Source of the DNA: Clostridia bacterium | Lineage (GTDB): Bacteria; Bacillota; Clostridia; Oscillospirales; CAG-272 | Direction of reading: 5' to 3' | DNA: 64,000 nt | Assembly (NCBI GenBank): GCA_017463125.1 | Contig: JAFTPV010000018.1 | Location: forward strand, 119,866 to 183,865 | In this document: positions 31,717 through 35,989 of the stretch, in pieces | Numbering within the stretch: position 1 is the first letter of the stretch | How the letters are laid out: the number at the start of each line of letters is the position of its first letter | Notes under the pieces: generated by a model | Databases searched by the model: none | What the model saw: only the letters and a program-made list of their open reading frames with translations | What the model was told of the DNA's origin: nothing | Position numbers and translations under genes: made by a program

Positions 31717-31787
31717 TTTTTTATCTAGCCTTTCATATATTGTATAAAACTCCGAATATAAAACAGTATTTCTTGGGGGATAAATTT

Positions 31788-32057
31788 ATGATAGATTTAT
31801 TTGGCAGAGAACGTGCGGAGCTGCTTGGTGAATACGTGATAGATACGGGAGCCACTGTTAGATGTGCAGCAGTACGCTTTGGTATAAGTAAAAGTACGGT
31901 ACATAAGGATCTTACGTATAAATTGAATAAAATTAATCCCGCGCTTGCAGAGCAGGTTAGGGAGGTTTTGGCAAAAAATAAATCAGAACGCCATTTAAGA
32001 GGCGGAGAAGCTACTAGGAAAAAATACCTAAAGCAGAGAGAAAGAAAAAAGACATAA
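31788..32057 (+). CDS. spoIIID: Sporulation transcriptional regulator SpoIIID
   Basis: An 89-residue DNA-binding protein that tunes the sigma-E regulon in the mother cell. Start set at 31788 with GGGGGA upstream. It reads RERAELLGEYVIDTGATVRC, a helix-turn-helix (AAVRFGISKSTVHKDLTYKL) and the basic tail RHLRGGEATRKKYLKQ that contacts DNA. Length and composition match SpoIIID from other spore-formers. This is the clearest single sign that the organism makes endospores. Confidence 0.95.
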   Translation: MIDLFGRERAELLGEYVIDTGATVRCAAVRFGISKSTVHKDLTYKLNKINPALAEQVREVLAKNKSERHLRGGEATRKKYLKQRERKKT

Positions 32058-32092: not shown

Positions 32093-32431
32093 GTTATTTT
32101 GATTTTTGCATTTCTATATTGATATTATATACTATTTTTTTGTTTTTTTCAATACCCCGGCGTTATTTGTTTTAATAAATCAGCATCGGACTCAAAAAAG
32201 TGCGTAAACCGTTTTATCTAATTTTCGATTAATAAACTGTACCAAGGCTCTAATTGAAAATGCAAAAAAATTCATACTTATAAGTGTACGATAGGAATAT
32301 CGCGAAGAGATTTTTATAAAATAAAATAAATAAGATATTATAAAAGAATTAAATAAAAGTAAAACAAACACCAAAATACGTCACAACCGGTTATTTTGCT
32401 ATTTTGACTTCCCTAAATTATACAAAATTTT
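32093..32431. other. A/T-rich intergenic stretch left of the integrated element
   Basis: Very A/T-rich, with stop codons in all frames. I see no gene, RNA or repeat other than the palindrome at 32416-32445 at its right end. Confidence 0.6.
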
Positions 32432-32445
32432 CATTTTGTATAATT
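32416..32445. repeat. 30-bp palindrome at the left attachment site (probable attB core)
   Basis: Perfect 13-bp inverted repeat, AATTATACAAAAT (32416-32428) and ATTTTGTATAATT (32433-32445), with spacer TTTC. The right arm belongs to the duplicated attachment sequence, the left arm to the host. Read as 11-6-11 it has the layout of a tyrosine-recombinase crossover site of dif type; the right arm shares 8 of 11 positions with the B. subtilis XerD arm as I recall it. Confidence 0.55.
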
Positions 32446-32473
32446 GGTGTTATAGTTCTTTACCCTGCTATTT
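32432..32473. repeat. Left attachment repeat of the integrated element
   Basis: 42-bp direct repeat, matching 35399-35440 at 41 of 42 positions. It bounds the GC-rich element on the left. Confidence 0.85.
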
Positions 32474-32558
32474 GGGTTTCTCGCTCCTTTAGTTTACCAC
32501 AGGGCTTGCAGTTTGTCAAGTCCCGAGGTATTTTTTGCTTTATTAGCGTTGGTAAATA

Positions 32559-32643
32559 GGGGCGGCGGTTTCACCGTCTGTGCTCCTTCAGAGTGCGACC
32601 TTCGCCCTCACTCTGACCGCTTCGCCAAGTACCGCACGCCCCT
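32559..32643. repeat. Internal 85-bp direct repeat, copy 1
   Basis: Matches 34781-34865 at 83 of 85 positions. Contains the hairpin CAGAGTG (32589-32595) / CACTCTG (32609-32615). The two copies flank ORF104, int, rep and the origin. Confidence 0.85.
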
Positions 32644-32795
32644 CGGTGCGTACCTGTCCATCTACTTCTCCTTTCCCTGCCCACGCTTTCGGCTCTTGCA
32701 ATTTTAGCATGTCCGTCAAGGGTTCCGAAGCGCCCTTGACCGCCACGCTCCTTAAAGAGTGAGCCGAAAGGCAAGTTCATTGAAAGGAGAATACG

Positions 32796-33110
32796 ATGGA
32801 AAGTTGGTTTTTTGCGCTTCTTGCTACTCGCAAGAAGCTCGAGAAGAAAGAGCCTTTTGAGGCTCCGGACTGGATTTCGGAACCTAGCCTGGTTAGTTCT
32901 CTCGTGATGTTTACCGAGCTCTCCCGTGACCCTCGGGTTTCCGGGCGGTTCGCACAGCTTCAGAGCCACGTTGAGAGAGTCTGCGAGCTCTCCGGTGACA
33001 TGCTCCCCGGGGTCGAACCCTCGACGCCTAATTATTGGTTCTTGCTTGGTTACAATCTCGCGCTTAAATCCGTGTCGGCTGTTGCCGACGAGCTGAAGAA
33101 GGGAGGCTAG
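32796..33110 (+). CDS. Unknown 104-residue protein of the integrated element
   Basis: Reads rightward toward the recombinase gene and overlaps its end by 4 bases. AAGGAG lies 6 bases before the ATG, so translation is likely. Sequence: MESWFFALLATRKKLEKKEP, then a helical body (RFAQLQSHVERVCELSG) ending LALKSVSAVADELKKGG. No recognisable domain, no signal peptide, no helix-turn-helix. Codon use is GC-rich like the rest of the element. Could be a recombination directionality factor or accessory protein; I cannot tell. Confidence 0.6.
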   Translation: MESWFFALLATRKKLEKKEPFEAPDWISEPSLVSSLVMFTELSRDPRVSGRFAQLQSHVERVCELSGDMLPGVEPSTPNYWFLLGYNLALKSVSAVADELKKGG

Positions 33111-33718
33111 CCTCTCTTCTTTTTCTTGCTCTCATGCGCGAGCTTGTAACCATCACCCAAAGCCTCGATAACCATTTTGACAATGAGCTGTAAGTCCTTG
33201 CGCGTGAGCGCGGCGTCGGCGTTCTTCCCCGTTGACCAATCCGCATAGCTGTAAATCTCTGTCGTGGCTCCGTTGCTGTGCTGCAGCGCTTCCTGCACCG
33301 CCCGGAAACCTCGGTCGCGGTAAAGCTCAACCGCAAAGACTTTTCTCATTGAGTGTGGGGACACGCCCTCTGGGTCGATATTTTGTGCCTTGCAGGCTCG
33401 TTTGACCCTCGCCCATACGCATTGCCGCGTAATGTGTGCGCCGCTCTTGTAGGGTGAAGGAAAGAGCCATTTGCCCTTCCGACCAGCCTCGAGTTGCTTC
33501 CGTAGTCCGCTGCTTATCTTCGCCTTCCCTGCCTTGCCCGTTTTCTGTGCCCTGTAGTGCAAGCCGTCGGGCTGGAGATTGGCTCTTCGCAGCTTCACCA
33601 CGTCACCAACTCGGAGCCCTGTCTCCAGGCTTACCGCAAGCGGCAGCCACGCATGTTCGCCAAGAGCTTCTCGCATTCGCTCGAGCTCCCCTTCTTCCAG
33701 ATATTTTGACTTTCCCAA
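33107..33718 (-). CDS. int: Minimal tyrosine recombinase (integrase)
   Basis: A 203-residue catalytic-domain-only integrase. The full active site is present: Arg36 in LETGLRVGDVV, Lys in the QKTGKAGKA beta-hairpin, His122-x-x-Arg125 in SPHSMRKVF, His147 in ALQHSNG, and nucleophile Tyr156 in TTEIYSYAD. The N-terminal core-binding (SAM-like) domain of most integrases is missing. The start is a TTG at 33718, 13 bases after the rep stop, with only a weak ribosome site. Encoded directly downstream of rep, so both are probably on one transcript. Expected to move the element at the 42-bp repeats. Confidence 0.85.
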   Translation of the reverse strand: MGKSKYLEEGELERMREALGEHAWLPLAVSLETGLRVGDVVKLRRANLQPDGLHYRAQKTGKAGKAKISSGLRKQLEAGRKGKWLFPSPYKSGAHITRQCVWARVKRACKAQNIDPEGVSPHSMRKVFAVELYRDRGFRAVQEALQHSNGATTEIYSYADWSTGKNADAALTRKDLQLIVKMVIEALGDGYKLAHESKKKKRG

Positions 33719-33731
33719 AATGTCAAATCCG

Positions 33732-34352
33732 TCACTTGACGAGTGACAACTCCGCCTCCACTCTCTTGGCTTCTATTTTGTCCTTGGCTCTTGAGTAGCT
33801 GTTACGCCGAGAAGCAATGTAAGAGTTAAAGAAGAAGGTGTGGTTCATAGCTACGTCAGCCTCTGTAAACATCTCATTATCGTTAAGTATGTCGATAAGG
33901 TCGGCGTATTCGATGATGTCTGCTTCTCTGATGAGCTTAAGTATCTCCTTCTTGATGTGGGATACCTCACTGTTGGTGAGCTCCACCAGGTCGGCTATGT
34001 TGAAGCCGTTGAGGGTGAGTATCTCGTGCTCTTCGTACTGATACTTTTCGGGGTTGTCCTTGTGGGTAAGGTATCGGTACATTCCCTTTACGGACTCTAG
34101 GGGTTGGGGTATGGTTGCGTTAAGACTTGCCGTAAACGAAGCTACGGCGTTATAGGTTGTGGGTCCGGAGTACACCACGATGACGTGGTGATGCGCTTTT
34201 TTGGGTTCTCCGGTAGGGTCCAGGTCTTTGTCGTGCAATGGGCTCACAGCACACAGCAAGCCCGATTTCTTAAGCTGCTCTCGCCAATCGGACGGAGCGC
34301 TCTCCGGGTATAGCACGAATGCCCAGTTTCGTTTTTTTACGTTGTTTTTCAT
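33732..34352 (-). CDS. rep: Rolling-circle replication initiator, pMV158 RepB-like (Rep_2)
   Basis: A 206-residue HUH endonuclease. Motifs in order: SPLHDKD (38-44), HHHVIVVY (metal-binding histidines 54-56) and MYRYLTHKDNPEKYQY, which holds the catalytic tyrosine (Tyr92 or Tyr94). A C-terminal helical region (120-206) would allow oligomers. Length and motif order agree with RepB of pMV158. AAAGGAGA precedes the ATG. The matching origin lies only 55-80 bases upstream. No CopG-type repressor gene precedes it, unlike in pMV158. Confidence 0.9.
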   Translation of the reverse strand: MKNNVKKRNWAFVLYPESAPSDWREQLKKSGLLCAVSPLHDKDLDPTGEPKKAHHHVIVVYSGPTTYNAVASFTASLNATIPQPLESVKGMYRYLTHKDNPEKYQYEEHEILTLNGFNIADLVELTNSEVSHIKKEILKLIREADIIEYADLIDILNDNEMFTEADVAMNHTFFFNSYIASRRNSYSRAKDKIEAKRVEAELSLVK

Positions 34353-34383
34353 TGTCTCCTTTCTCTAAAATTTGCAAGAAAAT

Positions 34384-34402
34384 GTCACTTGTCACAAGTC
34401 AC
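34384..34402. repeat. Three 7-bp-spaced GTCAC iterons (bind locus)
   Basis: GTCAC at 34384, 34391 and 34398, one every 7 bp. They lie between the nick hairpin and rep, where pMV158-type origins have direct repeats bound by RepB. Confidence 0.65.
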
Positions 34403-34406
34403 TCAT

Positions 34407-34432
34407 AGGGGGTGTGTCGTAGTACACCCCCT
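34407..34432 (-). other. Double-strand origin hairpin with TACTACGAC nick sequence
   Basis: Nine-base stem (34407-34415 with 34424-34432) and an 8-base loop. On the minus strand the loop region reads TACTACGAC (34424-34416), the conserved pMV158-family cleavage sequence, in which RepB cuts between G and A. The strand and position agree with rep being read leftward from it. Confidence 0.85.
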
Positions 34433-34953
34433 CACGCCACCCGCACACCAGGGCGCAAACGGCAAAATAACAGCCTGCGGGCTGGGGGATTTTTTTGCCC
34501 GCCCTCCGCTGCTCGCCACTCGCAGCTCCTTCGGAGTCTGCTCGGGTTCCCTCCGGCTCGCCCGCGCCCCGTGCGTCGCGTTGCTCCGCCGCCCCGCTAG
34601 CGTAATTCTAGCGTCACGCCGCTTTTGTGCAGTCATCTGCCCCTGGGTAGTGTTCTGTTCGCCCTTGCCCCTTGTTCGTCGTTCTCGGGGCTTCTCCGCT
34701 TCGCTCCAACAACGCCCCTCGCCGCGCCCAAGGGGTTCGGGCTTTCATAGCAAGAGGGAAATCTAGCGTTGGGAAGATGAGGGGCGGCGGTTTCACCGTC
34801 TGCGCTCCTTCAGAGTGTGACCTTCGCCCTCACTCTGACCGCTTCGCCAAGTACCGCACGCCCCTTGGGGTTGCGGCTCTGCGGAGCCGCTTCGCCTCTG
34901 CGGAGGCAGGAGCTTCCCCCTCCCGTCCCCCAGGGGAGCGCGGTTCTGGGTAA
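34433..34953. other. GC-rich non-coding part of the element
   Basis: No ORF here has a ribosome site or protein-like sequence. It holds the second 85-bp repeat and two tandem hairpins with the same TGCG loop, GCGGCTC/GAGCCGC (34873-34890) and GCCTC/GAGGC (34894-34907). These could belong to a single-strand origin. Confidence 0.5.
34781..34865. repeat. Internal 85-bp direct repeat, copy 2
   Basis: Partner of 32559-32643; two substitutions. Offset between copies is 2222 bp. Confidence 0.85.
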
Positions 34954-35107
34954 AGCAAAAGGTGCCCCGAACTAACGGAAGCACCCAAAAAAGAGATAAT
35001 TATGTCAGCAGCTTGCCCCCCGGCGCAAGATCCTCGCCGCTGCTTGCGAGGTTGGCGTGGTAGTCGGTAGTGTGACTCGGAGAGCCTTGACGTTTACCCG
35101 TCACCGC
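34954..35107 (-). ncRNA. Candidate small RNA or leaderless peptide unit of the element
   Basis: A consensus promoter at 35114-35142 predicts a start near 35107, and a hairpin GGTGC/GCACC followed by TTTT (34985-34954) would end the RNA after about 150 bases. A GTG frame at 35104-35000 (34 residues, TGKRQGSPSHTTDYHANLAS...) lies almost at the 5' end without a ribosome site. It may be a regulatory RNA, as in copy control of rolling-circle plasmids, or a leaderless peptide. Confidence 0.45.
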
Positions 35108-35113
35108 AAGCCT

Positions 35114-35142
35114 ATTGTAGCATGTGGCCGACAGATTGTCAA
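35114..35142 (-). promoter_or_regulatory. Sigma-A promoter inside the element
   Basis: Minus strand: TTGACA (35142-35137), 17-bp spacer, TACAAT (35119-35114). Confidence 0.75.
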
Positions 35143-35308
35143 GGCTTTTTTCGATTTTTTCTCTCTTTTTTGCTTTTTTGCTCCGCTTTGTGCGGTTTTT
35201 GTGCGCTTTTTGTGACGTTTGTGCTTCGAGACGTGCCAAACAGCAAGCCCTGGGGTCATTCGTCCCCGACCACCAATTACAAGGGGGCTACGCCCCTACA
35301 AAACAATC

Positions 35309-35394
35309 GTTAGGTATGGCGCTTGGTGTAGTTTGGCTGTGTCCGCGTCCCTCTGACCGTTCACAAGATTTTGATAGTAGCTGCCAAACCTAAC
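35309..35394. repeat. Inverted repeat near the right end of the element
   Basis: TCGTTAGGTATGGC (35309-35322) and GCCAAACCTAACGA (about 35382-35395) pair at 13 of 14 positions, just inside the right attachment repeat. Possibly an arm-type binding site for the integrase or a structure at the circle junction. The rest of 35143-35398 shows no gene. Confidence 0.5.
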
Positions 35395-35398
35395 GAGA

Positions 35399-35440
35399 CA
35401 TTTTGTATAATTGGTGTTATAGTTCTTTACCCTACTATTT
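35399..35440. repeat. Right attachment repeat of the integrated element
   Basis: Partner of 32432-32473. To its left the palindrome's host arm is missing and is replaced by CTAACGAGA, as expected for an att junction. Confidence 0.85.
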
Positions 35441-35566: not shown

Positions 35567-35989
35567 ATGAGAATGCGTGTTCTTACAAAAACAAACAAGG
35601 GAAAGCTTCTTGCTATTGCAGACGAGGTTACGAAGCTTATAGAGGCTGATAAGGCGGCTGACGTTATTCCATCTGCCTACCCCTGCGACGGCGAGCGTCT
35701 GGTGGTTATTATCGCTACGGCAAAGGCAGAGATGCCCGAGGACTTCTGCCGCTTTGTACGTTCACTTAAGAGAGCTATGACAGCCAACGTTGCGTTTATT
35801 ATTGACGGTACACCCGAGAATGCTGCAAAAATCGTCGAGATGGCAAAAACAGGCAATTCCAAGGTGTTTGAGGACAATATCCTTTACATAGACGGCGGAC
35901 TTCCCTTCAAGTTCCTTTCCAAAGTATCTCCTGAAGAGATGCAGAAAGTGCGCGAGTGGGTAAAAGAGATCAGAGCAAATCTTGCTTAA
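35567..35989 (+). CDS. Conserved protein of unknown function, possibly flavodoxin-like fold
   Basis: A 140-residue cytoplasmic protein. Alternating strands and helices (RVLTKTNKGKLLAIADEVTK, LVVIIATAKAEMPEDFCRFV, ANVAFIIDGTPENAAKIVEM) suggest a flavodoxin-like fold, but the FMN phosphate loop (T/S-x-T-G-N-T) is absent. C-terminal helix PEEMQKVREWVKEIRANL. CGGAGGA before the ATG. Single-gene unit with own promoter and terminator. The role is not clear. Confidence 0.7.
   Translation: MRMRVLTKTNKGKLLAIADEVTKLIEADKAADVIPSAYPCDGERLVVIIATAKAEMPEDFCRFVRSLKRAMTANVAFIIDGTPENAAKIVEMAKTGNSKVFEDNILYIDGGLPFKFLSKVSPEEMQKVREWVKEIRANLA

Follow-up and report, generated by a model that had tools for sequence, protein, structure and literature searches.

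The window analysed here, a stretch of 64,000 nucleotides from a Clostridia bacterium of the order Oscillospirales (assembly GCA_017463125.1, contig JAFTPV010000018.1, positions 119,866 to 183,865), contains an element of 2,967 bp (32432-35398, measured between the starts of the two repeats), which is probably a mobile plasmid alternating between a circle of this size and a copy at the dif site of its host. Comparable sites in other uncultured bacteria are occupied by relatives whose replication genes are quite different. The element encodes a replication protein (Rep) and a tyrosine recombinase (Int), and it is bordered by two 42-bp direct repeats that are identical at 41 of 42 positions and spaced by 2967 bp. 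Its G+C content is 54.5%, against 41.9% for the flanks, and it is present in a single copy in its own genome, a metagenome-assembled genome (MAG) of 1.9 Mb that is 92% complete. The main features are as follows (window coordinates).

32417..32444, plus strand: intact 28-bp palindrome at the left junction, probable dif (ATTATACAAAA-TTTTCA-TTTTGTATAAT)
32432..32473, plus strand: left copy of the 42-bp direct repeat, composed of the right arm of the probable dif and 28 bp
33107..33718, minus strand: Int, tyrosine recombinase of 203 amino acids, catalytic domain only (PF00589, E 6e-18)
33732..34352, minus strand: Rep, 206 amino acids, pMV158 RepB type, upstream of int and in the same direction
34407..34432, minus strand: predicted nick hairpin of the double-strand origin (AGGGGGTGT-ACTACGAC-ACACCCCCT)
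35384..35411, minus strand: remnant (modified) site, with ATTATACAAAA and TG as in dif, then TCTC and a non-matching arm
35399..35440, plus strand: right copy of the 42-bp direct repeat

The initial annotation of this DNA had described an element of under 3 kb between 42-bp direct repeats, with a pMV158-type Rep, a matching origin and a minimal integrase, and all of these were placed correctly. It had missed the probable dif target, the exchangeable nature of the replication gene, the conservation of Int, an open reading frame (ORF) of 104 amino acids and an internal repeat of 89 bp.

The palindrome at the left junction is perfect, displays the layout 11-6-11 and is overlapped by the left 42-bp repeat. 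It occurs once in its own genome when up to three mismatches are allowed. With up to two mismatches it was detected in 48 of 98 genomes (own genome included), at a single place in 47 of them and at two places in G069, and the control search with the reversed pattern gave no match. The maximum of the cumulative GC-skew is located at 2.0 kb from the palindrome in G000, 1.1 kb in G019 and 2.3 kb in G004 (near the window site the skew was computed with the element masked, and its maximum is about 2 kb away). In G067 the distance is 7.8 kb, the palindrome being located at 51% of a single contig of 3.0 Mb (400 kb around the site were examined). In all, the skew turns at the palindrome in four of the five contigs tested. 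In G374, G081, G461 and G095 a chromosomal xer gene is found at most about 0.2 kb from the palindrome, G095 having no detected Int of the family described below; in G484 and G485, it is the far end of the element or elements, not the palindrome, that adjoins xer, and in the own genome xer is about 52 kb from the palindrome. The proximity of dif to the recombinase gene is a possible hallmark of Xer systems with a single recombinase (PMC5357621). Matches to the XerC model above 200 bits number one in each of the four other genomes of the genus that were searched (G019, G040, G050 and G036) and two in each of three of the six order relatives searched (G067, G374 and G095). In the own genome, one of the six integrase-family proteins besides the Int of the element was scanned as an Xer candidate.

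Because of its 11-6-11 layout, its single copy, the skew turn in four of five contigs and the nearby xer in several genomes, the palindrome is probably dif, and the sites detected here provide a group of uncultured Clostridia with candidate dif sites. These same properties make it very unlikely that the palindrome is some other conserved AT-rich element, for example a terminator, which serves as a landing site. Perfect symmetry is indeed unusual among XerCD sites, and the skew of G035, which reaches its maximum at a distance of 78 kb, disagrees with a dif. Arms of perfect symmetry are nevertheless reported for dif in Legionellales (PMC9765430).

Empty sites are found in relatives: the palindrome adjoins the spoIIID-type gene with neither Int nor Rep in 11 loci (L056-L062 and L191-L194), picked for their match to the neighbouring gene or to the palindrome. 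The conserved downstream gene is located at most about 0.5 kb from the palindrome in seven of these 11 loci; in L060 two other genes are inserted between them, and in L191-L193 this gene was not found. The loci L055 and L063, which reach contig ends, were left uncounted. Two further genomes show other arrangements around the palindrome. In G054 about 3 kb separate it from the next conserved gene, with two long ORFs that are presumably ordinary metabolic genes, and no Int or Rep. In G002 (L055:2691) a dif arm is followed by other sequence about 0.1 kb before the end of the contig that carries the conserved neighbour gene, and the palindrome is located near the end of another contig; no Int was found in this genome, whose site may be occupied.

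The Pfam match of Int begins at residue 10, and no core-binding or SAM-like domain was detected in the protein, whereas an N-terminal core-site-binding domain is present in most tyrosine recombinases (PMC8138268). The catalytic residues R36, H122, R125, H147 and Y156 are invariant in the nine aligned Ints. A tree was built with eight Xers, two phage-type integrases and six other catalytic-only integrases as outgroups, and 17 of the 18 candidate Ints form one clade (support 100/99), separate from all of these. The initial candidate G069:C7 was dropped because it falls outside the clade; it is carried by a 9-kb piece without Rep, Xer or palindrome.

The family gathered through Int comprises 17 elements, 11 integrated and six circular. 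Within the genus, Int relatives are present in G050 (68%), G046 (49%) and G036 (47%). The elements of G050 and G046 share both neighbour genes of the window. In G036 the spoIIID-type gene flanks one side of the element, and the other side is flanked by a gene also present further downstream in the window, which we take to be of the aspartokinase type. The genome contig collection gave eight loci, three of them being G050, G046 and G036 again. The other five comprise three MAGs under the title Clostridia, one of Candidatus Merdivicinus (Clostridia), and L117. This last contig, assigned to a Paludibacteraceae bin, has ends that overlap by 141 bp and close it to a circle of 2,895 bp. Among 391 genomes of the class, four (the own genome, G374, G081 and G461) match at E 3e-47 or better; all have a Rep, and the latter three are beside xer. 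Concerning the other integrases of the class, 30 loci were examined of the 138 matching genomes out of 391. The 26 of them weaker than E 1e-29 show no convincing Rep in the 1.5 kb or less examined on each side, with known Rep types as queries (one match at E 8e-4).

The six circles with an Int of this clade are L117 and five deposited plasmids from uncultured bacteria. The latter were taken from the Int matches in the plasmid collection (292 records, 20 of them listed; seven records are counted as uncultured), where other plasmids with this Int may exist. pRGF00147, whose gene content is the closest, combines as a deposited circle the two genes found in the window element. Arms resembling dif are present in three of the six circles (pRGI00836, pRGI01058 and L117). 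Int also matches 123 records of the phage collection, none above 38% among the matches listed, and three contigs of the viral contig collection, weakly.

The window Rep contains PF01719 Rep_OBD (E 3e-43) and RepB_C (E 1e-6), matches the solved structure of pMV158 RepB (PDB 3dkx, E 1e-21) and displays the HUH and YLxH motifs in its translation; Pfam detects no helicase domain in its 206 residues. The gap between rep and int is 13 bp as called. Plasmids of the pMV158 type have a TACTACG-type loop in a nick hairpin beside rep, and are controlled by a CopG repressor and an antisense RNA. The motif TACTACGAC is found on the minus strand within the hairpin 34407-34432, and the same nick motif lies in a hairpin in all four fetched circles with related Reps. 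The fold of the window hairpin is unremarkable alone (z -1.9, with 9 of 200 shuffles as good). No CopG-type regulator was found in the element, where the only other candidate, the 104-aa ORF, has no family; an Rfam scan gave no match, antisense RNA being otherwise not sought. The plasmid collection contains 560 records matching Rep (best 64.8%) and the phage collection 48 (best 52.5%), the latter being small viruses from animal faeces (bajarodino, Dulem and Inovirus records). The viral contig collection contains no Rep relative.

Despite the monophyly of Int, the replication proteins of the 17 elements belong to four Pfam families. Rep_OBD is found in three elements (a Pfam match in the window, 73% identity in G482 and 64% in pRGF00147), REP_ORF2-G2P in eight (seven by Pfam and L117 by tblastn), Rep_1 in five and RepL in one, for which rolling-circle replication is not implied. 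Judged from these sequences, Int is the constant part of the elements and the replication gene is exchangeable, with the qualification that the set was collected via Int. Rep was also tried as family marker and rejected, its close relatives being rare in related genomes and elements of related Int differing in their replication gene.

One end of each of the 11 integrated elements is marked by an 11-6-11 palindrome, which is perfect in eight cases and has one mismatch in G485 and G461 and two in G036. Both ends are readable in 10 of the 11 (G483 reaches the contig end). At the far end, eight of these 10 elements (window, G050, G046, G484, G482, G374, G081 and G036) display an exact 11-bp arm and two to four central bases, followed by divergence; with G461 included, one arm and two to four central bases are found in nine of 10. 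The remnant arm tracks the variant of the host: it is ATTATACCTAA in G036, ATTAGACAAAA in G081 and ATTATATAAAA in G482, with a ATTTCGCTAAA-type arm in G461 and, loosely, in G485. It is extremely improbable that the integrated copies are assembly artefacts, in which a free plasmid was joined to the chromosome via a short shared sequence. Such joining could be suspected from the origin of the window in a MAG and from repeats of 42 bp here and of at least 45 bp in G081, but the same arrangement recurs in 11 assemblies, mostly with shared cores of about 13-23 bp, and one of these contigs is 991 kb long.

Other junctions are more complex. G484 (L215:6404-14520) contains two exact tandem copies with a period of 4,047 bp between xer and the palindrome, with an identical joint at all three ends. 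In G374 (L184:8886-9203) a second Int match, an open frame of 122 amino acids, is located beyond the first element and is probably a decayed earlier insertion. Three elements of the Rep_1 type have att sites with a centre of 10 bp instead of 6 (L106:1165, L184:9459 and L183:10040). Same-family elements also adjoin candidate dif sites with quite different, ATTTCGCTAAA-type arms, at L185:6854-6881 (G461) and, less surely, at L217:9222-9249 (G485).

We propose that the circle replicates by a rolling-circle mode, Rep nicking the hairpin at 34407-34432, and that it bears a dif mimic made of one true 11-bp arm and two matching central bases. If the window element is active, a single pair of strand exchanges in the shared arm would suffice to join circle and chromosome; of the two resulting ends, one would have an intact dif and the other a modified, poorly recombining site. 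With an intact dif at one end, chromosome dimer resolution could continue; excision would be low because the far site is modified. The catalytic-only Int would participate, its most likely partner being the Xer of the host, already present on dif. This joint reaction is favoured because Int has the catalytic residues yet starts at the catalytic domain. Within the same proposal, the sub-case where Int acts alone as an ordinary integrase, with dif as its attachment site and the host Xer uninvolved, is unlikely. Its catalytic residues and its own clade, apart from Xer, would suit such a role, but attP retains only one dif arm, Int lacks the core-site-binding domain that most tyrosine recombinases have, and the remnant arms match the dif variants of the host.

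It is quite unlikely, on the other side, that insertion at dif is the work of the host Xer alone, on the model of VGJphi or LME-1, and that Int serves another purpose such as multimer resolution. The junctions resemble Xer products of the VGJphi type (PMC5357621, PMC4246890), elements with dif mimics can dispense with an integrase, and Int has no recognisable core-binding domain; Int is nonetheless the sole gene common to the 17 elements (though they were collected via Int), whose replication proteins are of four families. A more speculative extension of the joint action of Int and Xer, to which we give some credit but not our preference, is that Int, devoid of a core-binding domain, would be a cut-down Xer partner on half of dif, catalysing on the mismatched arm and thereby turning a small replicon into a dif parasite. 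Int and the dif half-site would then constitute a portable cassette which has captured four kinds of replication genes and possibly integrates from a single-stranded replication intermediate.

Besides the skew of G035, several observations weigh against the proposal of a plasmid alternating between circle and dif. The skew curve of G000 is nearly flat for about 35 kb before its maximum. The circular form is known from relatives, the window element being known as an integrated copy, and none of the five arm types tried was found in the circles pRGF00147, pRGI00952 and pRGF00030. For the window Rep the other 97 genomes contain nothing close, apart from one match at 28% identity. The far end of G461 has one arm mismatch and two central bases, and G485 is a poor fit, its far arm having one mismatch and one central base (direct-repeat sense). 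In 120 kb of the own contig, six palindromes with at most one mismatch were counted, and the 18 kb of G485 contain two; because of this frequency, the palindrome by itself says little in G485 and G461, whose less strongly supported case relies on place, matching arms and nearby xer. Finally, 28 bp past the dif arm are common to the left end of the element (32446-32473) and the right chromosomal flank (35413-35440), and a crossover alone leaves these additional positions of the 42-bp repeat unexplained. In G081 the shared stretch past the arm is at least 30 bp long and another arm lies close by; in most other elements it is far shorter. A tandem or earlier insertion may have left this additional identity behind. 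The 42-bp repeat was considered as the true crossover core and rejected, because in most of the other elements the shared sequence is limited to the arm, two to four bases and short runs.

Insertion at dif through a carried dif mimic is known for the integrative mobile elements exploiting Xer (IMEX), which include VGJphi, CTXphi, TLCphi, LME-1 of Legionella and GGI (PMC5357621, PMC4246890, PMC9765430). For VGJphi the match is limited to the bases beside the XerC arm (PMC5357621, PMC4246890), and after insertion of LME-1 or GGI, dif is intact on one side of the element and modified on the opposite side (PMC9765430, PMC5357621, PMC4246890). By its sequence the window element resembles them: it has a dif mimic, it is located at the probable host dif, and of its two end sites one is intact and the other modified. 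Unlike the IMEX, which are defined by their use of the host Xer, most vibriophages among them having no integrase, the elements described here encode a catalytic-only recombinase in about 2-4 kb. No phage structural genes were recognised in the window element.

Concerning replication, the window element resembles pMV158 and pE194 by its Rep family, without helicase and with the RepB C-terminal domain, by the YLxH motif and by the TACTACG-type nick hairpin, and differs from them in being integrated, in having a recombinase and in the CopG-type regulator, of which none was found. The plasmids pCRESS1-9 are small, encode HUH Reps and, for most groups, are site-specifically integrated in bacterial chromosomes (PMC6668415). 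The statement of the initial annotation that rolling-circle plasmids normally do not integrate is contradicted, or at least qualified, by these pCRESS groups. Their Reps have a helicase domain that the window Rep lacks, and dif is not named as a pCRESS target in the available passages of PMC6668415, which mentions an unexplained Clostridiales cluster of integrated Reps. The circles from rat cecum pRGF00147, pRGI00836, pRGI00952, pRGI01058 and pRGF00030 have a similar size (2.2-3.8 kb) and combine an Int of the same clade with a replication protein (PMC3913684). They are known in the free form only and are not described, in the available passages of PMC3913684, as one family or as inserting at dif; inverse PCR confirmed 38 of 40 tested circles of that collection, which may include these five.

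The initial annotation had also suggested a distinct family of minimal integrative plasmids, a search of assemblies for pairs of Rep and minimal integrase, and a look for empty sites in relatives. Homologous elements and circular relatives were indeed recovered, and the empty sites carry the palindrome. Its reading as an integrating rolling-circle replicon of a distinct family is supported; insertion at dif as such was already known from the IMEX (PMC5357621, PMC9765430). In the open-access literature, as far as its accessible text extends, we found no paper that describes rolling-circle plasmids which target dif and encode a recombinase (subscription journals, preprints and the PMC6668415 supplement are outside this scope). 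The proposed dif-targeting minimal integrative plasmids are a variant on known systems which, unlike typical IMEX, encode a recombinase. If the proposal is true, they constitute a compact, non-phage class of dif parasites of about 2-4 kb, with one conserved recombinase and interchangeable replication genes. They would allow a clean test of one-sided strand exchange at dif with an element-borne catalytic domain, and a reading is supplied for five anonymous circles of a gut plasmid collection.

The other features in and around the window element are listed below.

31740..32057, plus strand: chromosomal neighbour, SpoIIID-type regulator (Pfam above cut-off, NCBIfam just below)
32496..32526, plus strand: left arm of a subterminal inverted repeat, 84% complementary to 35226-35256
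32558..32646, plus strand: copy 1 of an 89-bp direct repeat, inside the element
32796..33110, plus strand: ORF of 104 amino acids, function unknown, convergent with int
34780..34868, plus strand: copy 2 of the 89-bp direct repeat (97%), inside the element
35226..35256, plus strand: right arm of the subterminal inverted repeat, partner of 32496-32526
35567..35989, plus strand: chromosomal neighbour, conserved protein of 140 amino acids, no family above cut-off

The gene of the 140-aa protein adjoins the palindrome in many genomes of the genus. Family searches with the 104-aa ORF gave no match; it is weakly similar, at 20 of 62 residues (pairwise E 2e-5), to an ORF of 122 amino acids that occupies the corresponding place in G050. 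As single-stranded DNA, both copies of the 89-bp repeat, on both strands, have a fold that beats nearly all shuffles (z -2.2 to -3.8), and these repeats could be candidate single-strand origins.

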